Below are positions 7,801-36,875 of a stretch of 64,000 bases of DNA, piece by piece. The stretch is taken from assembly GCA_905160935.1 (NCBI GenBank), contig CAJHZI010000253.1, forward strand, positions 2,687,001 to 2,751,000. The letters are read 5' to 3'. Origin of the DNA: Enchytraeus crypticus. Its lineage: Eukaryota > Annelida > Clitellata > Enchytraeida > Enchytraeidae. A program made the translations under genes and the position numbers. Below the pieces are notes generated by a model. The model was not told where the DNA came from, did no database searches, and saw only the letters and a list, made by a program, of their open reading frames with translations. Position 1 is the first letter of the stretch. Every line of letters starts with the position of its first letter.

Positions 7801-10800
7801 CAATTACTACTTGAATTGATCGATCGAACAGTTGTACGACTTGATTGATAGATTGATAGAAAATAAATAACATGCATGAAAGTGAAGTTATCAATTATGA
7901 TGATATCTATCACTTTCACGAGGATGTGTTTAATCCGTTAGGAAATTTATTCTCTTTTGCGTATTACCAGTCTTGTAAATGTCTTAGAATTTGCTCTCGG
8001 ATCAGCGCAGCTGCGTATCGAACCCACAAGAGTTTAATTCACCTCAGGATCTGTCATTTAAAACTTCATGACATTAACTAGAGTTCAATTCACCTCAGGA
8101 TCTGTCATTTATAACTTCATGACGTTACCTGACGCGCCTCAAACCACTGCACTATTTAGGCATTCATTTGATCTACTGATTGGTAAAGCACTTGGCTACG
8201 ACGTGTAGTCTATTTCTAACTATGACGAGTGGACAGGCAGGGACATCGATTTATCTTTATTGATTCTTGACATTTTAGCCTCGAAATCTATAAATAGACT
8301 TTCATATGACCTCTGTGTTACTGCATTTTTTAAAAGAATATTTCTACTACAATTCAACTAAACTACTGCTGCAAATATTGACTGGCTGGAGCCAGTGGCG
8401 AATTCGGTAAGATACTCGACCGCGGATCAGAAGGTGCGGGGTTCAAATCCTGGTGTCACCCGTCACTGATATCGCTTTTGAGTGAGGAAATTGACGTTAA
8501 CCTTAGCCGTACCAGCTTTTTAAGAATTAATGCTAGTTAACCTTTAGCTCAAGATTTCTGTATGAATTAAATGGTCTAGGTCAAACACTTGACCGCACCC
8601 ACCTATCCAGAGCTATGAGTAGTATGGTAACAGTGGAGAGATACATAGGGAGGGCGAAGGCAGAGAAGACCACTCGACACAGTAGGTCACCGAAGATCCA
8701 GCGGTCAGTCAGCTGGTAGTGGAGCTGCAGGGGCAGGTTGAACATGCACATACCCAGGTCGGACAAGGCGAGGTTGACGACGAATATGTTCGTCACGGTG
8801 TGCATTTTTGTTGAACTCGCGGCAACAAAGACAACGGCGCCGTTGCTCAGAACTCCTGCGTTACATAAATAGTATTGATATTTTGTGTAAACAAACAACC
8901 CACGAAACTCCTGAAGGCAAAGCTGAGACTCCCAAGTCAGAGAATATCTTAAGAGATACTGACGGTGCTTCACCCGCAGATTTTATTTTCTCTTTTTTAT
9001 TTTTTTTTTATTTTCTTGAAAATCACAATGACACCGTACACCAAGCATAGAATGACGTGAAAAAATGACGAGCAGGCCCGAAGGCTCTGACGCATACCCT
9101 CAAAGGCTACAATTAAATTAAAAACAGTTCACGATACAATAATTACAATTACTCAAATTCAAAATAATGATACATGTGAAAGTAGTAGATTTAGTTGTAA
9201 ATAAAGCTTTAAGATTAGTATCGACTGAGGCATGATAATAATTTACAAATAACCTTACGAATTAATGTTACAATTAAGTTACAACTTATTTTAACGTCAA
9301 ATTTTATAAACATACAATACTAAATATTATGAAGATTTAACATCCGTAATGTCACCTACGGGTGATATCAGGCCCTTCTCAAGCGGTGAATAACCTGAAA
9401 CAGCTCAAACTCCTCCGACTGTACTAGTTCTTCGCTCTTCTAGTACAAACCTTCTCATTCTACAAATCTTTATATCTGCCATGAGCAGACTCATCTTCAT
9501 GTTTCTCCTCCGACAATCTGAAACTCTCTGTCTCAAGATCTTCGATCTTGGAACTGTACTGGTACTTTCCTTGGAAAGATAAAAACCTATCTGTATGCCA
9601 GAGGTCTAAATTTTGACCCACTTAATTGTTTTGGATAATGGACTTGCACTGTTTGATCTCGCTTTCTCATGTGGTCTCTCTGTACTCAGTCGTCATCGTG
9701 TGATTTTTTAGCGCCTGATTGTGTCGGGTCTGCAAGAGACGTCCCTGACAGTGCCTTATGGCGAGAAAGCGGACGTTACATTCTTATTGATTGATCGATT
9801 GATTCTCTTTTTTGGTTGCTGTTTTTGTAGTCTTCGTTACTTTTTCTCCTTTTCCACTCCATGGTTATTTGTAATCACTGCCTTTTGTTGGCACATCGAT
9901 TGCAGCCGGGGATTTATAATAACCTTCCAACACCCTCGGGATTTTTTCTTTCACAGCTGTCAACACTCGTTCTTCCAAAGTGGTCGCCCCAAAGTACTAA
10001 CCACGTGTAACGTGGCTTTACTTCGTTCAATTGACGCGCAGCTTAACCGAATTGCGCTGAATCCACTCCATGATAAGAGTATTAGCTACTATACTGTATA
10101 TGTGCAGCTGTTTTAGTCTATAGATTCATCCATCATCTAACTACTCCCATGATAATTTACCAGGCTTTGATAAGTGAATTTGTAGCATAAATAGAAATTG
10201 TGCTGTAAATAATTCATCAGTGAAACAATGCAACGAGCTAAGATTGCAGCAGAAAATCTGGACCTTTACATCAATAAAAAGTAGAAGATAAGCAGATCGA
10301 TATAGGGTAGAAAATTAGTCCACCATTGAATTAACGTTATACCAAGTAATAAGTTTTATTATTATTTGTTATTATTTGCTGCAGACATGAACATTTATTT
10401 ATCTCATTAATTCTGAAAATTATTCAGTAGTTGATATAAACGCTCCTCTAGAGACATTGAAAATTCTCGGCACGTGATATGATTTGCTGATTCGTAATTC
10501 GACATTTCATTATTCATAAATGACTTGGTAAAATCAATCAATCAATTAATCAATTATAACACTTGTTACATAGAGGTCATAGGTTCTAATCCAGGCCGGA
10601 CCGTCTCTGACATTATCCCTTGTGATACTACACATGTTAAATTTAGATTTAGATTTTTAGATCTTACTCAGATATCTATTAAACATGAAAATTGAACATG
10701 TATCTATGAAACGTTTACATAATAAGTTATAATTTGCAGGCGACCAATTTTACAAGGTTCGTAAGTGGCCGAATAGTTAAAATTGAGGTTTAGATTCATA

Positions 10801-11259
10801 TCCGCTGTCTGCATGTGTCATAAAAGGCGACAAAGCACTAAGATCTAAACCAACGTCAGTAAGGGCATTAGATTTTTGAGTGCCTAGGCTCCAGAAATTA
10901 TTGCAAAACTTTCTCTATCCTGACCCTATTTCAACAGGGATTCAAAAAAGATGATGATGTTAATTAGGATTATATTCATTCTATTATGAGAGATTCTTAC
11001 CTACGGCTATGATAACGACGTAAAAGGAAATCATCACAGCTCGAACCACAGGTTGCTTGATCAAATCGTAATGCCAGTCCGATTTCGATTGAGTCCAATT
11101 TCGAATAATTTCCCTCTCCATTTCACGAAACATTTGGAAGCTGTATTCTGACAACCCATTTTCGTCGCCGATATCATCGTGTAGTCTCCGTAAATCACTG
11201 ACAGAATCGGTTGTTTGAATATTAAATCCATCAGATGAAATAGTTGAGAAATAATGCAT
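4801..11259 (-). CDS. NPY/NPF-like neuropeptide receptor (rhodopsin-class GPCR), 3 exons
   Basis: Exons 11259-11001, 8855-8603 and 6124-4801 join in phase (259+253+1324 nt) to a 611-aa protein. All junctions are GT-AG (donors GTAAGA and GTGGGT; acceptors GCAG and TTAG). Visible motifs: extracellular N-terminus with an N-W-T glycosylation site; TM1 spanning the first junction; N-L-A-L-S-D (D119) in TM2; W-I-F-G and C146 in loop 1; D-R-Y at 170-172, with Arg split by the second intron; C227 as disulfide partner; C-W-L-P at 443-446; N-P-L-L-Y at 484-488, followed by W-L-N-D-N. Loop 3 runs about residues 267-430, unusually long and rich in Ser and basic residues. The start is the first Met after an in-frame stop. 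W-x-F-G and the TM6/TM7 sequence place it with NPY/NPF/short-NPF/PrRP-like receptors that bind amidated peptides at the plasma membrane. The exact ligand cannot be read from sequence. Confidence 0.9.
6221..6540. repeat. GAGT/GAGA minisatellite in receptor intron 2
   Basis: About 320 bases of degenerate GAGT, GAGA, GAAT and GTGT units, ending in a GGGA run. It lies about 100 bases upstream of the exon-3 acceptor (minus-strand sense), where it reads as a pyrimidine-rich tract. Confidence 0.9.
6789..6924. repeat. tandem repeat, AT-only units
   Basis: A unit of about 60 bases containing TTATTTGGAATATAATTAA and an (ATT)n run occurs two and a half times in the second receptor intron. Confidence 0.85.
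7880..8150 (-). mobile_element. SINE-B copy with internal duplication
   Basis: Minus-strand SINE-B inside receptor intron 2. A segment of about 49 bases around the B-box side (containing CACCTCAGGATCTGTCATTT) is present twice in tandem at about 8029-8077 and 8081-8128. This makes the copy longer than its relatives. Confidence 0.8.
8383..8520 (+). mobile_element. SINE-A copy, full-length
   Basis: One of the best copies. It has GGCTGGAGCCAGTGGCGAAT at the head, B box GGTTCAAATCC, then GTGAGGAAATTGACGTTAA and the ACCAGC end. It lies in intron 2, just downstream (genomic minus sense) of receptor exon 2. Confidence 0.85.
8995..9112 (-). mobile_element. family C retroelement 3' end
   Basis: On the minus strand this reads GTATGCGTCAGAGCC, then GGGCCTGCTCGTC, then a CACGTC block and an A-rich AATAAAA end. 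The same order recurs at 55560-55695 (plus). It is probably the 3' UTR of a non-LTR element. Confidence 0.6.
9655..9807 (+). mobile_element. element D, short repeat with SINE-like tail
   Basis: Shares CGTCATCGTGTG, then GAC/GACGTCCCTGACA and GGCGAG-(A/G)A-(N)-CGGACGTTA followed by TTCTTATTGAT with 45000-45230. The GTCCCTGACA...GGACGTTA part resembles the SINE-A tail. Beyond it are ATTGATTGATCG-type repeats. Confidence 0.55.
9850..10075 (-). mobile_element. 5S-like SINE copy 1 (chimeric head)
   Basis: On the minus strand a tRNA-like part (CAGCGCAATTCGGTTAAGC) is followed by a stretch resembling the internal promoter of 5S rRNA: GAAGTAAAGC, GGTTAGTACTTTGGGGCGACC and GGAAGAACGAGTGTTG. A body ending near CCATGG follows. 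Two further copies are at 22690 and 36690. It lies in receptor intron 1. Confidence 0.7.
10560..10640 (+). mobile_element. SINE-F fragment
   Basis: A B-box-like GGTTCTAATCC is followed by CCGTCTCTGACATTATCCC, as in the longer copy at 33055. It lacks a clear A box and is truncated. Confidence 0.45.
10805..10965 (+). mobile_element. family E retroelement 3' end
   Basis: Contains AAAGCACTAAGATCTA, ACCAACGTCAG, GGGCATT, GCCTAGGCTCCAGAAATT and ends GGGATTCAAAAAAGATGATGATG. It matches 30320-30580 (minus) and the end of 63605-63680. Probably a LINE 3' UTR with a (GAT)n tail. It sits in receptor intron 1, just before exon 1. Confidence 0.6.
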
Positions 11260-11391
11260 AGTTTGATTACTAGATAAAGAATCTACGAAACTAGAAATAT
11301 CATTGACAAAACTTAATTAAAATAACATATGAATTAAGAGTGTCGACTTCAATTTTACTTTCTTTAGATTATTCTTGTATACACACACAAG

Positions 11392-11394
<3 letters not shown>

Positions 11395-11423
<29 letters not shown>

Positions 11424-11504
11424 CATGTATACATAATAATAAAAAATTATAATAATAGTAAAGGCTTATATATACACGATAATTGTCTATATATAATATA
11501 TATC

Positions 11505-11567
<63 letters not shown>

Positions 11568-11575
11568 TGTATATT
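11395..11575. repeat. (TA)n microsatellites
   Basis: Two long AT dinucleotide runs separated by about 80 bases, just upstream of the receptor start codon (gene is on the minus strand). Poly-Ile/Tyr reading frames here are artefacts. Confidence 0.9.
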
Positions 11576-11996
11576 TATATAAACTATACAGTTACTTGTA
11601 AACATATACTTTTATATAGAGGCCTATATAGCTTAATTTTATTGCGTTCATGTTAAATTCCATTTTTCATGCCATTAATAGCGATCCAAATTCTTTGATA
11701 ATTAATTAAATAATCACTCTAATCGTTTTATAATAGTTAACCACGCTAACCTCGTAAAAATTTTATTTTCACTAAATTATTCAAAGATTGAGAATTTATT
11801 AAAATCAGTTAGGATTACATTGCCACAATTAACTGCATAAAATCTCATTAATATGTGATATCGTGTTTGAAGAAATAAATTAAATTTAGCCGCGACTTAA
11901 TCATCGTTCTATTTATAATAGATTTACTTTCAATTTTTATTTCAGCTAGATTATTTCCTAAATTAATTAAAATTGTGTTAACATAACGTTAACGTG

Positions 11997-12135
11997 AGCT
12001 GAGCCGGTGGCTTATTTGGCAAGTTTTCGACAACAGATCAGTAGGTGCAGGGTTCAAATCCAGCGCTCTCCCCGTCACTGTCATACTATGCTATTTGAGT
12101 AGGAAACTGACATTAAACTTGGCCTTAACCTTAAT
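11997..12135 (+). mobile_element. SINE-A copy, diverged
   Basis: Recognised by GGGTTCAAATCC, CCCGTCACTGTCAT and GAGTAGGAAACTGACATTAA. The head is diverged (GAGCCGGTGGCTTATTTGGC). Confidence 0.75.
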
Positions 12136-12259
12136 ATTTCAGCGCATTGAATAATATTAAAAGCGTTTAGGTATTCTACTTCAGTAATATTAGTGTTTAA
12201 ATTAGCTATAAAAAAATTCGACCAGTACCGGAGAAAAACTGAATAAATTAACCGAGTAC

Positions 12260-12425
12260 GGTCACTCCCCTGTTGAGACCGGGACACTGAAGAATAGACC
12301 AATCATTTACTACACGTGTCGAAAGCATGTCATACTAAAGCAAGAAGGTCGAGGAAGGCTACGGGAACCACATAAAAGCCATATATTTCAAGTCATATTC
12401 TATTACTTATGCGTATTCGCCTTAT
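12260..12425 (+). mobile_element. R5 repeat copy
   Basis: Shares CACTGAAGAATAGACCA and GAGGAAGGCTACGGGAACC with two other sites (50275, 63810), in the same order. Unclassified, about 150-220 bases, with no open frame. Confidence 0.5.
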
Positions 12426-12635
12426 GTAACAGTTTCAGTAATTTATCTCTCTCTCTTTCTCCCTAGTATTTTGCCAAATGTCAGGTCCAGAGTAGGCCTA
12501 CATATTCATAAATCAGCTCTCATGTACCATGAGGAGCAGTTAGACTCCATACACGTTAATTTCTTTAAAAAGGCTTTGCCTGATCATATACATGTATAAG
12601 GCAAATCCCTTTTAAAACGTTTAGCAAAATAATAA

Positions 12636-12684
<49 letters not shown>

Positions 12685-12715
12685 AGAAACGCTGAACTGT
12701 TACATAAGGCGAATA
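12414..12715. repeat. inverted repeat around CT/GA microsatellites
   Basis: TATTCGCCTTATGTAACAGT at 12414 recurs as its complement ending at 12715. The match continues inwards through a (CT)n/(GA)n tract and a GTATTTTGCC-like segment (12469 against about 12622). The arms are about 70-100 bases and the GA tract on the right is expanded. Confidence 0.65.
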
Positions 12716-13081
12716 GTCAGAAGTTCAAGATAAGGAAGGAAGGCAATGGGAACCTTAGAAGTAACTTGTAAGTCAATGGTCATCAATATTTGCGTTAAAA
12801 ATCTAAATTTCTGATTACATCAGTATGCTGAATGATACAGAAATCTAAGAGTGATATTGTTATGTGAGAAGGAATAAAATTCTAGGCCAAAATGGAAGCC
12901 AGTTTCCTCCTTCAGAAGTATTTTAGTGACGGAGTGAGAACTGACCTAAACGTAGAATTGATCTGCAGTCAAACACCTAACCGATTACGCCATTCAATCA
13001 CCTCAAAGTTCTCACACACACACACACACATATACATATAGATTTATATATATATATATAATATATACACACACCTACACT

Positions 13082-13216
13082 TAATGCTAATAAGCTCATT
13101 TTAATATCAGTTTCCTCACTCGAACGCGACGTCGGTGACGGGCGAGCCCACGATTTGAACCTCGCACATACTGATCCGCTGTCGAATATCTTATCGACAT
13201 CTTCACTGGCTCCATT
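13082..13216 (-). mobile_element. SINE-A copy
   Basis: Clear head-to-tail match: GGGCGAGCCCACGATTTGAA contains the B-box complement and CACTGGCTCCA the head end. It abuts the (TA)n tract at 13228. Confidence 0.8.
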
Positions 13217-13223
13217 GGTAGTA

Positions 13224-13227
<4 letters not shown>

Positions 13228-13292
<65 letters not shown>
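13228..13292. repeat. (TA)n microsatellite
   Basis: Pure TA repeat of about 60 bases adjoining a SINE-A head. Confidence 0.9.
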
Positions 13293-13293
<1 letters not shown>

Positions 13294-13757
13294 CCAGCTT
13301 AAATCCAAGATTTTGATGTAGGAACTGAACCTACAAAGGAAGCGACAGTAGCGACGACTGTCCTACAAATATTATCAAGCTAATATTGTTTCTTTCTTTA
13401 TTTCATGTTGACTTTAACGTGATAATCACAGCTATCTATCAAGGTAGTATAGAATGAACGAGGAAATATAAAGTCTTCTCATGAAGGCTTCGACTTAGTC
13501 AAGTTTGGCTTCATTCATAATTGGAAAGATCAGAGCGACTCACACTGTTTAGCCTACCCTACCTGAGCTAAAGCGATTTAAAACACTTATAATATTATTA
13601 ATAATTTAAATATGTAACGTCTATTTCTTCATACACGGATAATGTCAGGAAGTCCCAAATCACATGTCACTAAAAATCGATTAATTCAAAAGATTTGAAA
13701 AAGCATGTGCCGTAGAGAAGGAAAAAAGTTCCTAAACAGTGACGGTCCGGTGATATT

Positions 13758-13845
13758 ATTGAAAGCTATATATTAACGTCAGTTTCATCATTCGAAAGAG
13801 ATATCAGTGACGGGCGAGCCCCGGATTTGAAGCCCGCAAATCATA
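13758..13845 (-). mobile_element. SINE-A copy, 5' truncated
   Basis: Tail and B-box side are present (AACGTCAGTTTCATCATTCG, GGGCGAGCCCCGGATTTGAA). The A-box half is missing. Confidence 0.75.
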
Positions 13846-14426
13846 TATATTTTTTGTTCCTCAGTTACTGATTAAGATTTTTGCGTTCTCTCAGATATCA
13901 TTGATATAGCCTAAACGATCATAATGCTTAATTATTGTTAAATAAAACGTACTATCAGATGCAGTATTGCATTAATTACAGCAGTGTGTTAATTTGTTTA
14001 AAAATAATATAGTTTTAAATGCAGCATGCTAAAAAATACAACATAGTATTAAATAAAGTATATACTATTAAATACAGTATTGTATTATTCATTTCATCAT
14101 AGTATTAAATACGACATTGTATTAATTTCATCATAGCATTTAATACAGCATAGTATTAGATGCGTGATGGCACTAGTTGAAGCATAGTATTCCATACGTT
14201 ACGAGTGTACTTGTTCGCTCAACTATTTCAACAAGTCCAGTGGAATGCTCGGACTCAATGCTCCAGCAGGATATCATATTGTGTCCGAGTTGCTGGGACA
14301 GAAGACAACACTTCGGTATAGAGTCCGGTTACTGGAGTTGATTAAGGAGAGATCCGCCTAGCTGTGCAATATAAAGCTACGATTAATAAATAGCCTTATG
14401 CATAATTGAAAATGATTCATCTAAAT

Positions 14427-14562
14427 AAAGCTTTTAAAGCTAATGTAACGTCAGTTTCCTCATTCGAAAGCGATGTCAGTGACGGGTGAGCCCAGGATTT
14501 GAACTCCCGCATACTGATCCGCGGTCGATTATCTTACCGTTATCGCCACTGGCTCCAGCCCG
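14427..14562 (-). mobile_element. SINE-A copy, full-length
   Basis: Contains AACGTCAGTTTCCTCATTCG, GAGCCCAGGATTTGAA and CGCCACTGGCTCCAGCC, so both ends are present. Confidence 0.85.
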
Positions 14563-14794
14563 ATTTATTAAAATTGATAAATGATTGAAAGGATTAAATT
14601 ATTGTAATTGATAAAAATGGAAATATTGGCATAATTCTTTTTGCAATCACGAATTTAAAAAATGTAGGAATGTTAGGAAGAAGACTCGGACAGCATTATT
14701 GGTCTATTTACTCTCATTGCCTCATACTATTTGATACGGACAATACTATATATTTGTATATAATATTGATATATCAATCCTCATTAGCTCATAA

Positions 14795-15045
14795 TTATAA
14801 TAACAATAATAATACCAATTAGATTGCTACAGTCATCAATGACAACATCGAGCACTATTGAGACAAAATCAAGCCGGAGAGCAAAAAGAAGGTCCAAAAA
14901 AAGGTGTAAATTCCAAAATTCAGAAAATCAGTCCAAAGTAAAGGGAATTAAAGAAAAGGACTTTAAGGCGCAGGTCTCAACTCACGGACACTGGATCGAA
15001 AAAGAGATGGAAAAGATTGGTCTTCAAATGCCTCATAGTATTTGA
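14795..15045 (+). mobile_element. R4 repeat copy
   Basis: Begins after an AATAATAA run with ATTAGATTGCTACAGTC and includes GAGCACTATTGAGACAAA, CAAAATTCAGAAAATCAGTC, AAAGTAAAGGGAATTAAAGA and CTCACGGACACTGGAT. About six copies exist in the window. An open frame of about 70 codons runs through this copy, with Lys-rich S-K-K-(R/K)-x-K-F-Q-N and K-G-I-K-E-K-D-F. Family unknown. Confidence 0.6.
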
Positions 15046-15177
15046 TCCAGACTCAAACAGAAGCTTTACGATCGGTTGGTTGCTGAAAATCTAATAGTCA
15101 TTAATTATATTTTGAGCAGAAAACAAAACTTCCACGCAAAATATTATCTTACTAAATTTTTTCGAAAAACGAAATGT

Positions 15178-15320
15178 AAGATCATCTTTCTACAAAAGCC
15201 TTTCGCTTCTACTTGTTCTAGATTTATTTCGCATCATTTTATAATTAATTTTAAGATCATCTTGTTACAAAAGCTTTTGCTTCTACGTCTTCTAGATTTA
15301 TTTCGAATCATATTATAATT
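15178..15320. repeat. 75-bp tandem duplication
   Basis: AAGATCATCTTTCTACAAAA at 15178 recurs as AAGATCATCTTGTTACAAAA at 15253. Both are followed by CTTCTAC and TCTAGATTTATTTCG. Two diverged copies. Confidence 0.8.
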
Positions 15321-16035
15321 TTTATGCGTAGGCCTATGTGTATTTTTAGAAAGACTGACACAAACTGATGAGAATTCTATCAGATTGTGAAACATGGCTA
15401 AGGGCTCAAAATGTGATGTCTGCATTGAAGTGTGCGGAGTGTCCAAAAACTTTAAATAGTTCCAGGTTCATTGGTAGCTCTAGGCCTTGGCTATTGCTTG
15501 TGTCCTATATTTAGGTTTTATTCGGTCAAGGTTACCGACAACTTCAGATAAGTTTAGACAGCAGCAATGGATGTTTAATTGGTCATTTCTTTAAAAGTTT
15601 TAATAACGAAATAAGATGCCGTTAACATATCAAAGGATCAATAGCAATTAGAATATTAGGAAGAACTAAAATTAATTACCTTAATTAATTCATTTAAAAA
15701 TTCATTTTAGTCGGATCTCCTGAAGTATTATGCAAATGAATATGCAATAAAAAGTAGGCATATAAATTTCAAACAAAAATTGTGTACATGCTTGTAAACA
15801 TTACATCGCATTGTCTTAAATGCTTTATGAAAATTTAATATTTGGTACCTATTTAATGTATTCCTTTTAATAATACTCTCATGTGATATTTTCTTTTTAA
15901 ATAAATGCGAAAATGAATACAAATGGATGAACGCTATGACTAGACCACTGAACTTCTATGTGCTTAGAAATAAAGAGGTAAACCGAGAAAAGTGGATACA
16001 CAAGTTGTAACAGAACTGACATTAGACAATGCACA

Positions 16036-21120: not shown

Positions 21121-22689
21121 ATAGATTCTTAACAAATACCCCTCAATTATTATTGAGAAGTAGTTGTATAGTTTTCATAGATCTATAAATAACGCAATTT
21201 TTATTTTTAGGTATTGTAAGATCAAGGCTGTATTAGCAGGGGAGGGTGGGCTCAATCCCCGTGGCAGATATGTTCTTATTCTGAAGTTTCATCCCCAGTT
21301 TTAACCTAACCCAATAGTAAATCCCTGATGACCCTCCCAAGCAAGCCTTCGAGCCCCCCCAACAACCCCCCTTTAAAAATTGTTAAATACAACCCTGTGT
21401 AAGAGCAATCCAGCGGATTTAGCATCACTGATAGGACTGGTGCTTTAAGATCCTATTTCAATACAATCTCCATACAATAGCTGTCGGCACTATGGGGATT
21501 AGCTATGCTATGTCTATGCGAAAATGTGCCGCAGAAAAAAAAATAATTCTCTACCACATGTGTACATCTCGTTTCCATAAGGTAGACTTTTCATTTAGGA
21601 TTATCTCTTTCCTATCTGGGTGTACGTGTGGAGTACTCCAGGGTTGATTAAATTCACTGTTGTTCATCCATAAATATGTTTACAAGCCCTAAATGCAAAC
21701 AAGTCCTTTAATAATCCTATAGAGGCTGGTATTTTAGATAATTGTGGTTGTTGAAAATCTTTCGGCGTAATAAGCGTATTTGCTAAGCTAATGTCGGTCA
21801 TTGCTTCTTAATTCTATTTTATGGAATCATTGTAACAGCTCTATTCCTCTAAAATTGAAAAATAATCCAGTCGCGCTAATACCCATTTCGAAAGTTTTGT
21901 TAAATAATTTTCAATCGAAGTAACGCTTGTCAAAATTTTATTAATTATTTAAAAGAAATATCTGCTTTTTACAATTTTTATAAAAGATCGTTGCATATAC
22001 CGAAGTGTATGAACCTGCGCATCCTGTTTAAGATGGTGCTTATATGTTCTTCGTGAAAATTGTTGCCGAGCAGTCTCTATAAACGAAATTAGAAACAAAT
22101 AAATAGTTCAAACTTTAAAAAAATTTTATTAACATTTTTGCTTCTATAAAATACACAAGACTATCAATTTTCTATGATCACTTACAGAAGAATAAAATGC
22201 GTTACGCTAAAGTTTTGATATTTTGTTCTACATTTTAAGGCGTTATTTAAGACCCTCGTTCTCGCTCTGTGGTGATATGCCAAATGTTCAACTTTCCATT
22301 TGCAATGTGGTATTGCAGAACATTCAATCAGTTAATCCTATCAAAGGCTTGATATCTATACCTAACTTTTATAATATTATGTAATAGTATAGTATAACTA
22401 GTATAGTATAATCGTCCTTTGTTATATTGACCTGTATATGTCTGCAATAAAATATTTTGATTGGATTTGATTAAGCCTGATCATAATTATTATTAGAATA
22501 CTTCAGCTTGCGAATAACATAACCTCGTGGATATTTTCCCATTGCCTTCTTCAATATTTGCTAAGTCACCTCTGATAAAGTAGCATACTAAGCGCATAAT
22601 ATTTGTGTTGTATTTCATTTTTGTACTTTAGACAAAACATAACATAACATAACGGCACACTGGGTCAGGAAGCACAGATGTTTGTTTAA

Positions 22690-22925
22690 GACCCATTTCC
22701 TCCTTCCTCTCCATGGCTATTAGTAATCGTTGCCTTTTGATGGCGCATCAATTGCAGACGGCGCGGATTTAAGAATAACCTTCCATCTCCCTGGGATTTA
22801 TTCCTTCATAAGCTTTTACCAACACTCGGTCTTCCAAGGTGGTCACCCACAAAGTACTAACCGAGGTCGATGCAGCTTAACTTCAATAATTGACGCGCAA
22901 CTAAACCAAGTGCGCTAATCCCGCC
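22690..22925 (-). mobile_element. 5S-like SINE copy 2, best preserved
   Basis: On the minus strand: tRNA-like TTAGCGCACTTGGTTTAG, then GAAGTTAAGC (as in 5S box A), GGTTAGTACTT-(N)-GTGGGTGACCACC (intermediate element/box C region) and TTGGAAGACCGAGTGTTG. A body follows with CTGGGAGATGGAAGG-like blocks, ending at CCATGG and an A/G-rich end. The match to general eukaryotic 5S rRNA starts only at the GAAGTTAAGC block. Confidence 0.75.
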
Positions 22926-23245
22926 GTCAAAAGAAATTTGAAAAGTTCAACTTAAAACAGAACGTACTGACAAAGGCAAAAATGCAGCATAGGTTTGCAT
23001 TTGATATACCAACTCAGTCTGAGTTTCAGAATTTTCAGTGAAAAATCAACTATATGATTTCTGTATATTAAAGCAAATTTTCGCTTAAATGTCAGATATA
23101 CCAAACTTCCAACCACTTGTGCAAACCATATACTGTAGTAATATAATGCCCTACAGTATTAGTATCTAGGGCTCATCTAAGATTAGCCTATAATTAAAAT
23201 TATTTTGTAATTTTGGGAAGCTTAAAGCTTCCCACTGAATGGTGT

Positions 23246-23350: not shown

Positions 23351-24101
23351 CATCACATACTGCAGCAGGTCTAAATATAGATTAATATCATATCCTACTG
23401 GCAGTTAAAACTATTTATACTTTTCCAGGCGGTATTTCAGCATCCAATGGTTCGAAGAATTCGAGTCTGAAATTGTCACAGGCTCAATGAAATGTGAGCA
23501 TTTTATGATCAAGTCCTGAAATCGATACTGGTATCGGAAACAATAGGACCCAAAGCGACAGAATCGACTTCTACGACAGTTTGTGAAGAGTCACCAAATG
23601 CAAAACCGTCCCATATAAAAAGCACTCTGTAAGACCCCGCGACGCAAAATCAATATTTAATTTATTTAATTAAAATTCCGATAGGCCTAAATTATATACA
23701 ATTGAAATGTGAAATAAACACTCTGTACGATATTGCAAAGCAATATTATTAACAGCAAGTTAGAAACTATACAGATTTAATTACTTGTTAGATATACATT
23801 TAATATGCATGAAATTTATTGCGATTTAGCATATAGTTTAGATTATGTATAGTGTTTAAGTTCAGATGTTATAGATATTAACGCTATACAATGACAGTAC
23901 ACTCATGTACACTTATGTTTTGTCTCCGTTTCTTCACAGATCGACTCCAACGACATTCGATAAATGCAGATCATACAGCCTAGTAAGAGCTTCCAGAATT
24001 GCAAACACGCTGAATACGAGACCAACAAAGCAATGTAGTTTCTTTTCTCATAGAAAGAATGCTGTAACACTCTGCAGATTTGTGTGTGTGTGTGTCGTGT
24101 A

Positions 24102-24236
24102 AAGCTGATAAAGCTAAGCTTAACGCCAGTTTAATCACTCGAAAGCGATGTCAGTGACGGGCGAGCCCAGGATTTGAACACACACATACTGATCCGCGGT
24201 CGAATATCTTACCGACTTCGCCACTGGCTCCAGCCA
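24102..24236 (-). mobile_element. SINE-A copy, full-length
   Basis: GTCAGTGACGGGCGAGCCC, GATTTGAACA and TTCGCCACTGGCTCCAGCC are all present. A short GT/GA run follows the head. Confidence 0.85.
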
Positions 24237-24474
24237 GTGGTGTGTGTGAGAGAGAGAGAGAAATATGTTTATATTTCCCAAAAATTTCAGGTATTTTGCG
24301 TGTTTGGTTTCGTTTCAATGTTCTCATTGAAACGAAATACACTGTTTCAGTGTTTTCATGAATGACTGTATGTATTTGCTACAGGGTGTATGAGCATGGG
24401 AGGATGAGGAGTGTCAACATTGCAAAATGCAGGTTTATCTGTTGCCGGATATGTGTTGCTAGTACATATAAAGC

Positions 24475-28275: not shown

Positions 28276-28298
28276 GATTAACTGGAATTAATATTAAA

Positions 28299-28472: not shown

Positions 28473-28610
28473 GGCTGAAGCCAGTGGCGATGTCCATAAG
28501 TTATTCCACCGCGGATCAGTATGTGCGGGTTCAAATCTTGTGCTCGTACGTCACTGACATCGCTTTCGAGTGAGAAAACTGACGTTAGCATTAGCTTTCT
28601 TACCATTCTT
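28473..28610 (+). mobile_element. SINE-A copy, full-length
   Basis: GGCTGAAGCCAGTGGCGATG, GCGGGTTCAAATC, GTCACTGACATCGCTTTCG and GAGAAAACTGACGTTA are in order. Confidence 0.85.
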
Positions 28611-28947
28611 ATGCTTGATGCTAATTTATATATTATTAGTTTTGTCAGATATTTAGTACTATTGGTGTAGTTATTATGATACGGTACGTGTATGATATAC
28701 AAATATAGTCAGAACCAGAAGCTCTTATTTATTAAGACTTGAGCATGGCACACAATATATAGTTACTTGTATAAATGGATTCAGCTTCTACGTTTACTTT
28801 CTTCTGTAAATAAAGCCTATTTACCTACATGTATGAATAAGTAATTTCATTCGAAATATAATCTCATGCCATGGGGTACATTAAAACATTTGATTGACGA
28901 TAATGAGTGTAATAAGTAATAAATAACACCAATATAGTGACATAATT

Positions 28948-29132
28948 AACTATGTTAATATTCATCACTTGCAATACCACATGCTAAAGCCGCTAGACAA
29001 ATCATTCTATTTAATCCGTATAACGAGTCCTGTGAAAATCCGAGATTTTACGCTCTAACAACGCGGCTGGGAATCGAATCCACGAGAATTCAATTCACCT
29101 CAGGATCACATAACATTTCATGACGTTACCTG
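28948..29132 (-). mobile_element. SINE-B copy, diverged
   Basis: CGCGGCTGGGAATCGAATCC carries the B-box complement, followed by CAATTCACCTCAGGATC and TTCATGACGTTACC. The 3' body is shortened. Confidence 0.75.
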
Positions 29133-29782
29133 TATACTAAAAGTAGTTATGCCTATTTAATTATTATAACTTCATTAAATTGATTTAATCTAGCTAGTTT
29201 GAAGCCTGAAGCTTTCTTTCTATTAAAATTACGCTCAGTTTACTTTCTCAATCGCATAAAAGAAAGCAAACTTTGCTGCATTGCCCGTTTAAGGTTTTCA
29301 TTCTGTTTGCTTGAATGATTTGGTTACAAGTGGTCTTCATACTTTTTACAGAAAATGAGGAGAAGTTGTAGAGGAATTTTTTGAGAAGTTTAATTCTCAA
29401 TTAAATTCTATCTCTCAATACTTACTCACAGCCAATTTAAACCCAGTCATATTATTCACAGCCAACTAAACCCTCGTTTGAGTTTAAAGTAAAATATATT
29501 TTTTAATTATTTATTTAATAAAATAATTATTGATAAAGGATCACTGCATCGGTGATGGTAGGGTGAGAAAATAAAAGTTCTCGCGCAGACCTCTAATCAG
29601 CGGTTGAGCGACCCAAAACGAAAGGAACCTTTATTAAAAATTTTACTGTAGGCTTGCCTACACAAAATGGAGGCCAGAACTAGTTACCTAGTCGAGCGTT
29701 GTGATTACTAAGCAGGTGAAACCCTTGTTACGGGCTAAACACAGTAATATCATCACGAATATTTCATAAAAATTAATATATT

Positions 29783-29812
29783 TATTACGTGGAACTTGAA
29801 TTCCACGTAATA
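29783..29812. repeat. 12-bp perfect palindrome
   Basis: TATTACGTGGAA and its complement are separated by six bases. It is short and its function is not evident. Confidence 0.5.
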
Positions 29813-30319
29813 ATGCATTTAAACAAAAAGGAAGAAACAAAGTGCTCAGAATGTGGTAGAAACCAAATTTTATTTAATAAAAAATTAAGGACATTTCGAG
29901 TATTTGCACGTACTACGCACTGGTTCAGATTAAAAACAGGTGTTCTCTATGTGTATTTACACTACAGACTAAAATGCACTTCGTTATTTTGTTGCATGCT
30001 GAATAATTCAGTGCCAAGTAATTCAATGCAGACGGACTTAAAACTATTATACATGTAAATCATACTATATAGCTTGTCTTACTATCCAGGTTTAATATTT
30101 TAAATCGGTTAGAATTATCTAAATAAGACCATGATTTCTTAATTTCTAATTAAGATCCCAATTTCTTAATTTATGTTATGGTAAATATGCTAAAATATAG
30201 TACTATTTGAGTGACTGATTTTAAACCAAATTTACAGGAGAGGCTACAGATCATGGTGTTTAAATGACATATCTCTTGTGATACGAAAGTAAACGTTAAA
30301 CGGGGTCGCTGCAGAACAG

Positions 30320-30580
30320 CATCAGTCTTTTTCAGTCATCGTCATCCTCCCTTGAATCCCAATTTAACTGGGGTAGGGATAAAAATAGACAACCTCAAAT
30401 CCTCTCTGTCCTACACCACATCACCAGCCAATCCCCTATTTGAGACTTTTCCATTCGTTTAAATTTTTGTAGCAATTTCTGGAGCCTAGGCTCTCACCAA
30501 TCGAATGCCCATTCTGACGTTGGTATAGATCTTAGTGCTTTAGTTGCGTTCCACGACACCTGCAGTCACCGGTTGATCAA
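30320..30580 (-). mobile_element. family E retroelement 3' end, longest copy
   Basis: On the minus strand: AAAGCACTAAGATCTATACC, AACGTCAGAATGGGCATTCG, GCCTAGGCTCCAGAAATT, and a terminal GGGATTCAAGGGAGGATGAC. The first four blocks match 10805-10965. Confidence 0.65.
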
Positions 30581-30944
30581 TTCTTCAAACAACCCGGACA
30601 AATCACGGGGACAATCTTTTTCAGTCAAAGGCTGCAAACTGAAGCAAAGGTGAAAAATTACATACATTACAATACAAAAGAAGTATTAAATAATAAATGG
30701 AGAAATTAATTATAAAAACACAGGTAGTAAATTGAAGAAAAGATGAAAAATAACATTCATGAAATAAAAAAGAAATATTAATAATAGATGGAGAAAGATG
30801 TTCATGAGAGAACCATATCATTTTTAGATTTAAATTAAAATTTAAAAAGCCATTGCTCTTTAGCTTATTATTTTTGAACTCTTTCTGTAAAGTAGTCTCG
30901 AAGACTGATTTCGTCCATAACACTGCTATATAAGTTTTCGTTGT

Positions 30945-30987
30945 TAATAATGATGATGATGATGATAATAATAATAATAATAATAAT
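30945..30987. repeat. (ATG/ATA)n microsatellite
   Basis: GATGAT followed by AATAAT triplets immediately before the RLE-type LINE fragment. It could be the target-site flank or the tail of an older insertion. Confidence 0.85.
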
Positions 30988-31800
30988 AGGCGCGGCTGCT
31001 CGCAGTGTCAGCCTCCGTAGTGGAGACTGGATCAAGGCTTTACCAATCTCATCATGCGGCCTCCGTCTGGACGACGAAGCAGTCAGAGTCGCGGCCGGTC
31101 TTCGTCTGGGCACTACCTTATGTGAGCCACACAACTGCATTTGTGGTGTCTCAGTCAATGCGTTAGGCATTCACGGTGTCGTGCAAGCGTAGTGTCGGCA
31201 GAATCAGCAGACATCAGTTCATAAACGACTTGATCTGGCGCGCCCTGAGTCGAGCGAATATTCCAGCCATTAAAGAGCCCCTGGGATTGATCCGCACTGA
31301 TGGTAAACGTCCAGACGGTGTCTCAAAAATTCCATGGGCAGAGGGGAAGTGTGTTAGCTGGGACGTTACTGTTACGGACACTTTCTCAGTAAGCAATCTC
31401 GGCCTTTCTTGCGCTGCTGCTGGTGCTGCAACAGAGGCCGCGGCTAATAGGAAAACTCTGAAGTATGCCGAAATCTCTGGCAACTATACCTTCATGCCTA
31501 TGACGCCCAGCAACTCTCTCGCATCAGACTTTATTGACGAAATAGGCAGGAGGACCAGCGCCATTACTGGTGATAAGCGCGAAAAATCTTTTCTGTGGCA
31601 GCGACTGTCTATTACTCTCCAGCGATTCAATGCAGTCTGCTTCAGTGGCACTTTGGCTAAAGCGGCTTCCCAGAGTGCAGAGGAATTATTTTAATCGCTT
31701 TTTTAAAAACTTTTAATTAAATAAAGTCTCTTTTATCTTATATTTTTAGCCCAGGGCCCTTTACAGCCCAGGGCATTAAAAAAGTAATAATAATAAAATT
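30988..31800 (+). mobile_element. non-LTR retrotransposon 3' end with restriction-like-endonuclease-type region, frameshifted
   Basis: Two overlapping frames cover the C-terminus of a retrotransposon protein. The first (to about 31190) has a zinc-knuckle-like cluster C-I-C-G followed by H-G. The second (31176-31694) continues with S-C, S-R-H-Q-F-I-N-D, then G-K-R-P-D-G (near 31300), and K-C-V-S-W-D-V-T-V-T-D-T. A CCHC cluster, R-H, R-P-D and a following D-V are the layout of the RLE domain in R2/R4-type elements; that assignment is inference. One frame change near 31176 breaks the reading frame, and no reverse transcriptase domain precedes it. After the stop at 31694 come AATAAAG, a GCCCAGGG-containing 3' end and an (AAT)n tail. 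Confidence 0.75.
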
Positions 31801-31870
31801 AAAATAATAATAATAATAATAATAATTATTATTATTATTATTATTTTCATTATTATAACTATAATAATTT
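31783..31870. repeat. (AAT)n-(ATT)n palindromic microsatellite
   Basis: An AAT run switches to an ATT run, so the tract can fold back. It starts at the 3' end of the RLE-type LINE. Confidence 0.85.
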
Positions 31871-32283
31871 TAATAATATCAGTGAGTCCAATTATGCACA
31901 TTAATATTACTTTATGTCTTCAAATTTGACAAAAATCAGATTTTTTGCGTCGTCAATTGAGTGATGAAGAATTCTTCAATGCATAATATACTGTTTGCAC
32001 CACTGCTCCGGAACAGAGTTCACAATTTTTTACTTACACCCTTTTTCTCTTATACAGTGGTTAAGTGAAAATTGAGAGCTAGTGAAACGGTCACATTTTT
32101 CGGGCCCTCTTCCTTTAGGCCCCCCTATATGGGCCCTTAGTGGTGCCCATATTTGAAAATAATCCAGGTAGTCGGATTGTTCGAGTTCCCTCTCGTACCC
32201 CCCCCCTCCCCAACCTCCCTAATGCCCTTAAAACATATTTACATCTAGAAATTGCCATGGAAACAATGTAAATATAATTCCAC

Positions 32284-32345
32284 ATTTTTATCGTCAGGCC
32301 TATGGGGGGGGCCCGGGCCCCCTGGGCCCCCTGGGCCCCCTGGAT
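32284..32345. repeat. GC-rich GGGCCCCCT repeat
   Basis: Three to four units of CTGGGCCCC in otherwise AT-rich DNA, next to a GGGGGGG run. On the minus strand it gives Gly-Gly-Pro repeats. No longer gene context was found. Confidence 0.7.
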
Positions 32346-32412
32346 CTGACATTGGGTGAAGGCAATGAAAAATAATTGTTGATCGCAATATAATCTGATT
32401 AACACAGACAAG

Positions 32413-32553
32413 TATAGTACTATGATAGGACAATGAACTGAGATCAATGGGTCAAACAAAACCTATACATATTAATTTAGTTGTATAGTACAATGATAGG
32501 ACAATGAACCTAGATCAATGGGTCAAACAAAACCTATACATATTAATTTAGTT
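32413..32553. repeat. 71-bp tandem duplication
   Basis: TATAGTACTATGATAGGACA at 32413 and TATAGTACAATGATAGGACA at 32484 start two copies that are almost identical to the end (TATTAATTTAGTT), so this is a recent event. Confidence 0.9.
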
Positions 32554-33054
32554 TGGATTAACTTTGCGCGCTATTGTTCCTGTAGAAAGAAAAACTCTTG
32601 CTTTTTGTTCTTAACCCGAGCCACTTTATCGCTGTTATGCAATAATTAAAGCTGCTGCGTATCTGGTGCGTACTATGAAGAGAACAGGTAACAAGAACAA
32701 AGTTCTCAATTAGTTGCGTAGAATTATTTGAGTGTAGAAATTAGAGGCAGCTTATTGGCTTTATCTTCATCCTGCAAATAAAGAAGTCGTCTTTCTGACT
32801 GTCTGTCTGTCTGTCTGTATGTCTAACCAGGTTAAAACTGCTTTGGTTAAAGTTAATGCAATATTTCATGCAGCAATTTGGAGATTTAAAATACGAATAA
32901 AAAATAATAGTATTAATTAATTATTAATAGTTTGTTTGGTTATAAATGTTTACTTAAAGGTATCAGCACATTATACTACTCATCTATTGATGTTCAAGCT
33001 GATAAACAAGTTCAATTATAAGTGCCTATAATGTTATCCATCTAATTGGACCTG

Positions 33055-33200
33055 TGGGATGGCCGCAAGGATAAGAAGTTGTTCTGAAAAACATGACGTT
33101 ATGGGCTCCATTCACAACCGGACTATCTCTAACAATATCCCCTGTGATGGGGAAACAGACATTAAACTTGTCATTACAGCTTTACTGGCCTTACCGAACT
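33055..33200 (+). mobile_element. SINE-F copy
   Basis: A-box-like TGGCCGCAAGGATAAGA, a weak B box, then CTCTAACAATATCCCCTGTG and GGGGAAACAGACATTAAACTT. The last part is homologous to the SINE-A tail, but the head differs. Confidence 0.6.
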
Positions 33201-33514
33201 AAACGAGATAACGTTTTTCAAAGAAACTGTCGGACCTTGCAATTGTTGGAATTATATGTCTCTAATGACATCTGAAGGAAATTTAACTTTGCCCGGCACA
33301 GAACTTGATCATTTCTTTATTTTAGCGTCTATGCTGTCAGAGTCAGAGGAAGTGGATCAATTGTGTTTGTCCTTGTCGTCTCATTTACAGGACAGTAGGA
33401 GTCATTGTGCTCGCCTCGGCAGCATCATTTTTCTTTCGCGTCAATTATTTAGCTTACTTCCAGTTCTTGGATTTATCTGCAATTTCCGGTGGATGATGTG
33501 ACTTCTTATTTGTA

Positions 33515-33692
33515 GAGAGAATGAGAGAGAGAGAGAGAAATAGAGAGAGAGAGAGGATGGGTATGGTGGTATGGGAATTCAGAGATACAGGTAAGACAGA
33601 AAGACAGTCATGGATACAGACAGAGAAAGAGGAAAACGAGAGAGAAGAGATAGGCCTAGATACAGATTACTAAAGTAATCACTTGAGATTTT

Positions 33693-33756
<64 letters not shown>
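33515..33756. repeat. GA-rich and (TA)n microsatellites
   Basis: AGAG/AGAC-rich sequence at 33515-33660 and a pure TA run at about 33694-33756. Confidence 0.85.
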
Positions 33757-34310
33757 CACATATCGATTTATTCTGCACTTGTTTAAGCTTAACGATTTTT
33801 AACCTTTGAGTTCGCAGCTATGCTATTTTCGGCTCGGCCATCATTAGTGGAGCCTTCGAGCTCCTCAGTTCACAATACTGTCACAAAATGCTGTATGACA
33901 GAACCAATTAAAATACTGCCGATAAACTTAGAAGTTCGTTTATATATTACGGCAAAAAAGCCAAATTTTTTTCTATATTATGGCAAAAGCCTATACTATG
34001 GCAAAAATGATCAAATAGGGGTTCACGCTAGCAATTATTTCTGAAAATCGTCAACATTTCTTAATATTTGTGGACTTTAAAATAGCATTAAGAATAAATA
34101 ACAACACTTTAAGACTATTACTGTCTGAGTACACTCCTTATACATGCAATGGAGAAGACTGTGCATTCTTACTTCATAATACTGTTGAAATGCCATCTCC
34201 CAAGATGAAGCATCCAGCATTAATTCTCCGTAGATAATGTCGTGAGTCGATAGAATCAATCATTGCGAGGTACAGCTGATAGTTGTGATAAGGACTGATA
34301 AAGGGTGACT

Positions 34311-34387
34311 TATCAGGTAGATGATAGCGAAGATCATGACAGTCAGTCCAATAGACTGTCATACTCTTCGCTATCATCTACCTGATA
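34311..34387. repeat. long hairpin, 34-bp arms
   Basis: TATCAGGTAGATGATAGCGA at 34311 begins an arm of 34 bases that pairs with 34354-34387 with two mismatches, around a 9-base loop (34345-34353). The arms are of mixed base composition, so this is not an AT slippage product. Confidence 0.85.
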
Positions 34388-34436
34388 TCTATCATCTACT
34401 CTGTCCAATAGAGTGTCTAACATCATTGGTTAACCC

Positions 34437-34705
34437 TCAGTCATAGTCATAGTCATGGTTATAGTCATAGACATGTCACAGTCATAGTCATGGTTATAGC
34501 AATAGTTATAGTTATAGTCATAGTCATAGTAATAGTCACAGTCATAGTCATAGTCATAATCACAATCATAGTCATAGTCATAATCATAGTCATATTGTCA
34601 TATTGTCATATTCAACACATATTTTCATATTGTCATATTGTCATATTGTCATAGTCATAGTCATAATCATAGTCATAGTATTAGTCCTAGTCATTGTAGT
34701 AGTCA
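34437..34705. repeat. hexamer satellite, (CATAGT)n
   Basis: Degenerate TCATAG/TTATAG units over about 270 bases, with an inner block of TCATATTG repeats. Confidence 0.9.
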
Positions 34706-35504
34706 TGGAATGAGCCATAGCTTAGCTTTACTGGACTAAAAGCTGTTATTTGCCATCGTAAAGTCAATCAGTCTTTAATACAAAAGTTTTGAGACGATAT
34801 CAATGCTTACCAGTGTCAAACAACCATACTACGACATTTGTTAAGATCTAATTATGTTGTAATATTGATAATAAAGTCTTATTTTAAAATAAACCCTCGT
34901 TAACTACATTTTAAATGAAAACCAATGCGAATAAGATGAAAAATCACGAAAAAATAGTGAAAGAAACAACTAATAACCTGCTGTTATCTGCAAGAGATAT
35001 TTTTCATTATCTACTCGTTATTATCAATTTAAATTACTACAAATTTACTACAGATAGAAGCAAATTATATACACAAATTAAGTAAATAAAACAAAATCAT
35101 TAAGATTAATTAAAATATTTAACAAGTAAATGTAACCGGCTTGCCTAATGTAACAAACTGGAAGCATCATTCATCGTTTTCGCAGCTATTGCTGCAAGGA
35201 CAGCATGGGTCGGTCACAATTTTCTGCACATTACTAATGTATGACGTCGTCTCATTTGCCACGGATACATCGCTCTTTCTATCCTACATTTGTCATGGAC
35301 TGGAATCCAATTCCTATCGCCCCCGCATATGTTCCGTGTAAATGGAACTACCGGCACCAAGTGACGCTTCAATAAATCTGAAGAAGGGGTTGTCGGGTAG
35401 TCTAAAGTCGACATTTTAACAACTGCTGAAGTTTACACAAACGCTTATTAGTATAATACGAAACCTAATAAAATATAACTTTTACAGAAATTAACAAACA
35501 ATAA

Positions 35505-35660
35505 TGATAATAATTAGAGTTTTACTGTCGTCCATAACAACATCGGCAACTATTGAGAAAAGTCCATTAATCAGAGCCGGTTAGCAAAGGAAAAAAAAAA
35601 AAAAAAACGGTAAAACTATTCCGAAATCCAGAAAGAACAGTCCAAAGATAAGCTATCCTG
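35505..35660 (+). mobile_element. R4 repeat copy, diverged
   Basis: AATTAGAGTTTTACTGTCGT, CCATAACAACATCGGC and CAGAAAGAACAGTCCAAAGA follow the family order. A long A run is inserted. Confidence 0.5.
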
Positions 35661-36184
35661 AGACAGGTTTTGAGGTTTTCAAATTTTTAACACGAAGTTT
35701 TTCAACACAATCGTATGGCCTTTGATTCATTCGTCAACTGTTCTAGGTACATGTAGCTGTACTGGATGAAACTTGCTTTAGGCAATTTCATATTGCTGCC
35801 AGAAAATAAATTAATTAATATGTATTACCCCACAGTCCAACCTAATATAGTTGCTGTGAACCAAATTCAGCAGTCCCCTAATAAAAAAATCCACATATTG
35901 TTTAGGATGGATAAATCAGCTCTATACTGTCACTCACGTTCAGTGTCACAAGTCATCTGTTCTCACGCGGTAGTGCAATATTTCCTTTTGCCGCCGCGCG
36001 TTCAACTACAGAACAATAGCGCAAATATTATTTATACATCTTCTCAAGTATAGATGAGAACACATTTATTCTGCAGTGAACAGGAGCTTTCTCTAACTGA
36101 AAGGAAAACAGCGAGCATCAGATGAGCTCAGAATAAGAGTGTCTCGCAATAAGTGTCGTTAAAAGCGCATCAATTTCGTCTTAA

Positions 36185-36250
36185 TGTATGCGGAGTTCAA
36201 ATCCTGGGCTCGCCCGTCACTGACATCGCTTTCGAGTGAGGAAACTAACT
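36185..36250 (+). mobile_element. SINE-A copy, 5' truncated
   Basis: Starts in the B-box region (GAGTTCAAATCCTGGGCTCG), then GTCACTGACATCGCTTTCG and GTGAGGAAACTAAC. Confidence 0.8.
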
Positions 36251-36689
36251 TTTTCAGAAAAAGCAGGTTTTATCTTTCATAAATAATTATATTCGAATGT
36301 TTCGTTTTAAAGGCATAATACCAGTAAAATGAATCTTCTAGAAAATACATGTATATTAAGATAATTATTAATTTTCTTAATTTCTGTATTTATTTATACA
36401 TATTTTTCCATAACACAACAGATTTTGCACAATATATACACGCAGTATATTTTGTATTTTGACTTGTTCTACTTTAATAATAATTTAAAACATAGACTAA
36501 TAATAGTAACCTACTGGGTCAGAAAGCACTTCAATATTTGTTTTAAGACCAATTTTAGCTTAATGTTAACATTCGTTCAACTATGGTTGTCTGTGAAACG
36601 AGTATGGCCGAGATTCTTCTTAAAAATTTAATTCGGCCGACTGGCAGGTTCAATTCTGCCGACGATATTCATGGTAGTGAAGTGAAATG

Positions 36690-36875
36690 TTTTGGATGAT
36701 CTTGAGTTATTTACGATGGACCAAGGAAATATTGCTCGAATGGATCTAGGAGATTTTTTAGTCAAAGCTGTCAACACTTGGTCTTCCAAGGTCACCCATC
36801 CATGTACTAACCTGGCTCGACGCTTGGTTTATTGACGCGCAGCTAACCAATTATACTCTAAATCTCGCCTCCACA
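36690..36875 (-). mobile_element. 5S-like SINE copy 3
   Basis: On the minus strand: ATAATTGGTTAGCTGCGCGTC, split from AAGCGTCGAGCCAGGTTAGT, then ACATGGATGGGTGACC and TTGGAAGACCAAGTGTTGAC. GGATGGGTGACC is closer to true 5S rRNA than in the other copies. A few bases after GACC are missing. Confidence 0.7.

Follow-up and report, generated by a model that had tools for sequence, protein, structure and literature searches.

Three related repeats in the genome of the annelid Enchytraeus crypticus are best read as short interspersed nuclear elements (SINEs) whose RNA polymerase III (Pol III) head is a composite in which a putative tRNA-derived A-box segment is followed by the control region of 5S rRNA, a linker, and interchangeable bodies and tails; we put the probability of this reading at about three in four. 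The repeats, here called c1, c2 and c3, all lie on the minus strand of a 64,000-nucleotide stretch of contig CAJHZI010000253.1 (assembly GCA_905160935.1, positions 2,687,001 to 2,751,000), referred to below as the window and numbered from its first letter. The evidence comprises the composition of the sequences, fixed ends in two subfamilies (types 1 and 2), dispersal in many copies, an excess of target-site duplications (TSDs) in type 1, and modules in common with other SINEs. An earlier note, made from the letters of the window, had proposed a SINE with a tRNA-like start and then a 5S-like part, and the analysis supports that order; its description of three copies of one SINE gives way to three subfamilies that differ in their 3′ parts.

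Three subfamilies with a common head

A model made from c1–c3 recovered the three copies with nhmmer at E values of 2.5e-71, 2.2e-68 and 2.6e-53, the next match in the window having an E value of 6.5. Elements c1 and c2 are 78% identical across 232 nt, and c3 can be aligned to them by blastn only over roughly the first 90–118 nt. The head, the 5S part and a short linker are common to all three types, to about nucleotide 135; c1, c2 and c3 are members of three subfamilies with a common head of about 135 nt and not copies of one SINE. The earlier note had placed them correctly, except that at the low-numbered (3′) end its extents were too short in c2 and c3 and, by a small margin, in c1; the following extents were set by alignment to subfamily consensuses.

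9807..10071, minus strand: c1, a type-2 subfamily copy lacking ~48 nt at the 3′ end of the ~312-nt consensus
22654..22928, minus strand: c2, a full-length type-1 SINE of 275 nt, plus a GTTAT tail
36553..36869, minus strand: c3, a type-3 subfamily copy with a body unlike that of c1 and c2

Identity to the respective consensus is 86.3% for c1 (10064–9807 against type-2 positions 8–264), 97.5% for c2 (type-1 positions 1–275) and 77.8% for c3 (type-3 positions 1–318). The 3′ end of c1 is lost where another repeat adjoins; that repeat, at 9634–9805 and abutting the truncated end, belongs to a family (J) also seen at 45065–45225. The middle of c3 was considered as an insertion, and this was rejected because the identical body type is found in its relatives.

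Further copies, for which the earlier note had proposed a search, are plentiful in the host assembly (524 Mb in 802 contigs), with 2438 first-look candidates for type 1 (queried with c2), 4188 for type 2 (c1) and 1259 for type 3 (c3), counts that are not deduplicated between the three queries; 40 were scored for each type. All 40 scored type-1 matches are 95–100% identical, and the 275-nt consensus, built from the window copy and the 39 other scored copies, has a mean divergence of 1.5%, a figure from the 40 best matches and so from a sample biased to close copies. Type 2, sampled with 20 of its 39 other scored copies, runs for ~312 nt and then into an A-rich tail. Type 3 is ~320 nt long and its copies are old and decayed; 20 of its 39 other scored copies were sampled, and the final consensus has 18 rows including c3, with three loci that hold the body alone (L121–L123) dropped. 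The elements are short (below ~500 nt), repeated many times and dispersed, the scored copies being spread over many contigs. Extrapolating from three copies in 64 kb would give ~25,000 in the genome, with a very wide error. A 25-nt pattern across the head junction, which suits type 2 and older copies resembling it but not the type-1 consensus, has 369 exact genomic matches against none for the reversed control, and four of 30 partly overlapping tRNA loci each hold one further copy. No match was found in viral contigs to a 5S-region pattern or a body pattern, nor in phages to c1.

These numbers bear on whether the repeats are immobile relics (pseudogenes) of a 5S gene cluster, one of the outcomes that the earlier note had named as fatal to its proposal. 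The spacers inspected in host 5S arrays do seem to carry a degenerate 5S copy, but thousands of first-look candidates, copies on many contigs, fixed common ends, and a body and tail that are not 5S leave this explanation with next to no probability.

The 5S-derived region and the tRNA-like head

Against human and Drosophila 5S rRNA sequences, c1–c3 score 23–37 and are the best 5S matches of the window, the best non-overlapping one of 1020 tiles reaching 17; the 5S-like blocks of the earlier note are thereby confirmed. The match spans box A, the intermediate element (IE) and box C, c3 being without most of box A.

9961..10036, minus strand: c1, 5S internal control region with box A, IE and box C, from local alignment to Drosophila 5S positions 36–113
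22820..22901, minus strand: c2, 5S internal control region (5S positions 31–113), from 5S alignment
36764..36833, minus strand: c3, 5S region with IE and box C kept and box A mostly deleted, from 5S alignment

The c3 region scores 30–31 against the Drosophila and human sequences. The Rfam 5S model gives 16.9 bits for c1 (9955–10042), 23.3 bits for c2 (22814–22931) and 14.7 bits for c3, all under the gathering cut-off of 38; low scores are what elements without the 5′ part of 5S should give. With that cut-off applied, Rfam reported nothing in the window, and neither did ARAGORN in its bacterial setting. In the comparison with the host's own 5S genes that the earlier note had called for, the type-3 consensus reaches 86.6% identity over 67 nt (E 1.7e-17). 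Alignment to host 5S covers positions 31–113 in type 1, 36–121 in type 2 and 30–121 in type 3, and the three consensuses have 5S scores of 43, 43 and 54. Judged by sequence likeness, we regard the 5S half of the elements as firm. All three consensuses carry the promoter region that characterizes 5S-derived SINEs (SINE3), from 5S ~31/36 to 113, and with box A, IE and box C they have, as far as sequence can tell, the Pol III internal promoter of a small RNA gene expected of a SINE. Their 5′ ends have no detectable similarity to 5S 1–47 (p 0.92, 0.44 and 0.37 for types 1, 2 and 3), so the 5S-derived 5′ end of SINE3 elements is not seen here. The 5S-derived part is the control region alone, ~80 nt, and the earlier note's 5S-like body is accurate for that region and not for the remainder, which is not of 5S origin.

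The search of the host genome for 5S yielded 47 scored matches, all above the cut-off. Host 5S rDNA units of ~910 bp seem to pair an intact 5S gene with a degenerate 5S copy in the spacer (positions 1028–1150 of locus L048, with weaker matches in L049–L053). A supposed difference between host 5S and the SINE at GGTTAG was rejected: GGTTAG is present in 12 of 13 motif matches (from partly overlapping 5S loci), and the gene read first is a variant.

Upstream of the 5S region lies the tRNA-like part, which was compared with 21 tRNAs and with the A-box consensus TRGCNNAGYNGG.

10039..10071, minus strand: c1, tRNA-like head (A box/D-arm region), type-2 consensus positions 1–33
22896..22928, minus strand: c2, tRNA-like head, type-1 consensus positions 1–33
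36845..36869, minus strand: c3, tRNA-like head, decayed; the type-3 consensus carries the exact A box

The type-3 consensus head has a best tRNA score of 18 (Ile), equalled by none of 3000 shuffles, and matches the A box exactly; the type-1 head scores 13 (Ile, p 0.028) and the type-2 head 14 (Met/Asn, p 0.023), each with one A-box mismatch. A score of at least 18 is reached by six of 5816 44-mers of the window, all within two other repeat families, A and B below, that resemble tRNA SINEs. Single copies give p values of 0.02 (c1), 0.056 (c2) and 0.28 (c3), and one type-2 copy in locus L016 scores 16 (Met, p 0.0035). Real descent from both a tRNA and 5S predicts that the oldest subfamily should be the most tRNA-like and the most 5S-like, as type 3 is observed to be. 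The order proposed by the earlier note is thus upheld, the case for the tRNA half coming mainly from the consensus of the oldest subfamily, type 3, and the signal being marginal in the younger two. The tRNA-like part is short, about 25–33 nt covering the A box and D-loop region.

Several results weigh against a composite head, and others, taken up with the ends below, against mobility. The tRNA signal of types 1 and 2 is marginal, as their p values indicate, and 124 and 56 of the 5816 window 44-mers reach 13 and 14, the scores of these two heads; the type-2 stretch 67–110, itself 5S-derived, also scores 14 (His). The head columns of type 3 are among its least conserved, and in three of its 18 rows (L105, L112 and L117) no head can be recognised; the exact A box is accordingly a majority call across decayed copies. 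Host tRNAs, a comparison proposed by the earlier note and made for Thr, Lys, Arg, Ala, Cys and His, score lower than the set of 21, with a maximum of 12 for type 3. The three consensuses contain no B box, the best match having 3–4 mismatches in 11 positions, so that the pairing of A box (1, 1 and 0 mismatches) with B box typical of tRNA-derived SINEs (SINE2) is not present. The tRNA/5S junction is ambiguous by ~10–20 nt, with short matches of the GGTT and CGTC type on both sides.

The weak conservation of the type-3 head lowers our confidence in a composite head and raises it in a plain SINE3, in which the 5′ 45 nt would be a diverged 5′ half of 5S and the tRNA look a product of chance or promoter convergence. 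About 42–45 nt precede 5S box A in the elements, and its distance from the 5′ end, ~45 nt, is nearly that from the start of a 5S gene, ~48 nt. Lepidopteran SINE3 elements and the Ajax elements of nemerteans likewise keep the promoter boxes and diverge upstream, according to Kojima (PMC10886601), and such a history would also suit the marginal tRNA support in types 1 and 2. However, similarity to 5S 1–47 is undetectable in all three consensuses (p 0.37–0.92), and divergence with convergence would predict the opposite of the observed trend, in which likeness to tRNA is greatest in the oldest subfamily, the one with the exact A box. We consider a plain SINE3 unlikely.

Ends, mobility and exchange of modules

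The 40 type-1 copies start at, or 1–2 bases from, GACGGCGGGATT, and end in GTGTGCC followed by (GTTAT)n with slight variants.

22634..22698, minus strand: c2 3′ tail, TGGGTC/GACCCA stem-loop and (GTTAT)n, an end common to the 40 copies compared

The type-1 consensus tail folds at −13.1 kcal/mol, a value without a shuffled control, and the consensus lacks TTTT, an absence of little weight given that 19% of 230-nt stretches of the window have none either. Types 1 and 2 both combine a fixed 5′ end with a simple-repeat or A-rich 3′ end, as expected of SINEs. Nine of the 40 type-1 copies are flanked by TSD-like repeats with scores of 8 or more, against 2.5% of 400 permuted pairs, in a test whose downstream stretch was shortened and search range changed after a first look at ten copies. 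Retrotransposition, which the earlier note had inferred, is supported for type 1 by 40 copies with common ends, a mean divergence of 1.5% and this TSD-like excess. The duplications and common 3′ end that the note had suggested looking for are otherwise only partly borne out. Three of the nine type-1 repeats (L025, L046 and L047) fall in simple repeats; type-2 TSDs are not enriched, with one of 18 copies at 8 or above (four of 22 rows having been filtered out); those of the window copies are not significant; and the type-3 copies showed no common 3′ end, nor is there a single end across the subfamilies. A candidate duplication at c1, AGACTA..AAACAGC, was rejected when its downstream half proved to belong to the type-2 tail.

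The 3′ ends also bear on the idea that the repeats are long terminal repeats (LTRs) of a terminal-repeat retrotransposon in miniature (TRIM) with a captured 5S promoter, like Ajax (TRIMp3), whose LTRs contain the same 5S boxes and a diverged upstream part (PMC10886601). The present elements end in microsatellite or A-rich tails, and their TSD-like repeats vary in length where a fixed 5 bp would be expected; on the evidence of these ends we hold this origin to be very improbable.

In two of the 40 type-1 copies, L024 and L017, a short piece of the element's 5′ end is repeated at the start, which would fit a restart of reverse transcription or a template switch close to its finish. In L016 a type-1 copy is followed by a short GTTATGTTT stretch and then a type-2 copy in the same orientation.

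Bodies and tails are found apart from the 5S part as well. The type-3 body occurs without it in L121–L123, of which L122 and L123 have tRNA-like heads by eye (tRNA score 16 in L123), and the type-1 tail was matched at four of nine tail loci (L124–L127), three of them with tRNA-like sequence at the head by eye and tRNA scores of 18, 15 and 14. That the type-1 tail and type-3 body also stand on tRNA-headed SINEs indicates that modules have been swapped. It raises a variant of the composite head in which the A box was captured ready-made from a resident tRNA SINE and not from a tRNA gene, an exchange like that between the moth SINEs HaSE1 and HaSE3. Types 1 and 3 do have a tail or body in common with such SINEs, but four of their heads score 5–10 against the consensus heads, for which the best tRNA scores 13–18, and we think this source rather unlikely.

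A type-1-like tail also stands beside c3.

36513..36555, minus strand: tail adjoining c3, 81% identical to the c2 tail over 43 nt (E 6e-5)

It has 10 genomic matches, itself counted, and is either the 3′ module of c3 or a truncated SINE lying against it. The type-1 tail has no match in the 17 other type-3 loci, so the tail beside c3 may belong to such a neighbouring element.

Two further repeat families of the window contain tRNA-like stretches. Family A (562–801, 7869–8129, 28918–29130, 43283–43504, 45361–45598 and 54313–54549) has three copies with tRNA-Thr-like stretches that are among the window's best tRNA matches, and is probably a tRNA-headed SINE family. Family B, ~140 nt long (3836–3963, 8376–8529, 13082–13214, 14426–14560, 24100–24240, 28473–28605, 47437–47576, 48096–48213, 57069–57203, 60399–60538 and 61312–61477), has stretches like tRNA-Cys, tRNA-Trp and others, with exact A boxes at 24223 and 47560, and is probably another SINE family, with many copies in 64 kb. 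Elsewhere in the window, a 175-aa open frame at 31167–31694 (plus strand) has an RTDGKRPDG...PW motif, which we take to be one of retroelement-derived invertebrate proteins, and no Pfam match at E 0.001; open frames at 55908–59770 (plus strand) with Arfaptin and ICA69 C-terminal domains represent an islet cell autoantigen 1-like gene; and pieces of a rhodopsin-type receptor lie between 4804 and 8982 (minus strand), the domains of both being of animal type.

A possible mode of spread and relation to known elements

The composite-head reading suggests a course of events in which a tRNA-derived A-box segment of about 25–33 nt would form the 5′ end, fused to the 5S internal control region (5S ~31/36–113) and then a short linker, the fusion probably having arisen by a template switch between tRNA (or tRNA-SINE) RNA and 5S RNA. 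TFIIIA and TFIIIC would bind box A, IE and box C of the 5S-derived part, possibly with assistance from the tRNA-type A box, and would set the Pol III start at the first nucleotide of the element. The RNA would then be reverse-transcribed at a nicked target by the machinery of a long interspersed nuclear element (LINE) that recognises the 3′ tail – the stem-loop and (GTTAT)n in type 1, the A-rich tail in type 2 – and later template switches would have exchanged bodies and tails. A more specific proposal, that a tRNA A box upstream of a complete 5S control region makes a hybrid type 2/type 1 Pol III promoter (in the nomenclature of Pol III promoters) with its start at the first base, and that the head is a portable cassette on at least three different 3′ parts, we advance tentatively, as something that may well prove incorrect.

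AmnSINE1 is reportedly a composite of 5S and tRNA parts in the order 5S then tRNA. On that account the tRNA-like-then-5S order here differs from that of AmnSINE1 and the Deu-SINEs, and the elements do not have the AmnSINE1 arrangement. A composite of tRNA and 5S is also said perhaps to exist among fruit-bat SINEs. The fruit-bat MEG SINEs are 5S- and tRNA-derived by a title cited in PMC3272025; compared by description, they are alike in that both RNA sources occur in the SINEs of one genome, and unlike in being mammalian. AmnSINE1 is listed with a 5S head in a review.

In the texts surveyed, SINEs derived from 5S are recorded in vertebrates and some insects (PMC7245038, PMC8466645) and in an Aspergillus fungus (PMC5063351), the named hosts being vertebrates, a beetle, moths and butterflies, and the fungus (PMC7245038, PMC8466645, PMC5063351). 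Zebrafish SINE3, SINE3-1_TC and the lepidopteran HaSE3, PxSE4 and PxSE5 resemble the present elements in having 5S box A, IE and box C near the 5′ end, a non-5S body and a LINE-type 3′ tail; as far as the descriptions consulted go, they are set apart by heads given as 5S-derived, where here a tRNA-like A box replaces the 5′ half of 5S. Two papers report that HaSE3 of moths has its body and tail in common with the tRNA SINE HaSE1 (PMC3272025) and that a tRNA-headed SINE resembles the 5S-headed PxSE4 (PMC8010984); the type-1 tail and type-3 body found with tRNA-headed SINEs parallel the HaSE3/HaSE1 case. Ajax TRIMs combine the 5S boxes with upstream sequence that has diverged (PMC10886601), and are alike as invertebrate mobile elements with 5S box A–IE–C behind a non-5S upstream part, and unlike as LTR elements, the present ones having the microsatellite or A-rich ends of SINEs. 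Among literature titles and abstract openings, a scope that leaves Repbase, SINEBase and most subscription papers outside and is not proof, no tRNA-then-5S SINE is described. SINEs derived from 5S, and composite ones, are thus already known, and the tRNA-then-5S order of the head is what appears to be new.

Kapitonov and Jurka, as cited in PMC3272025, argued that 5S-derived SINEs are weakly expressed because the 5S promoter needs upstream signals. Placed at the 5′ end, a tRNA A box would, if the reading is true, be a natural remedy for a weak 5S promoter, and the many young copies in E. crypticus make the idea testable. With one head on three 3′ parts, and bodies and tails in common with tRNA SINEs, these elements offer a clear case of modular SINE evolution.

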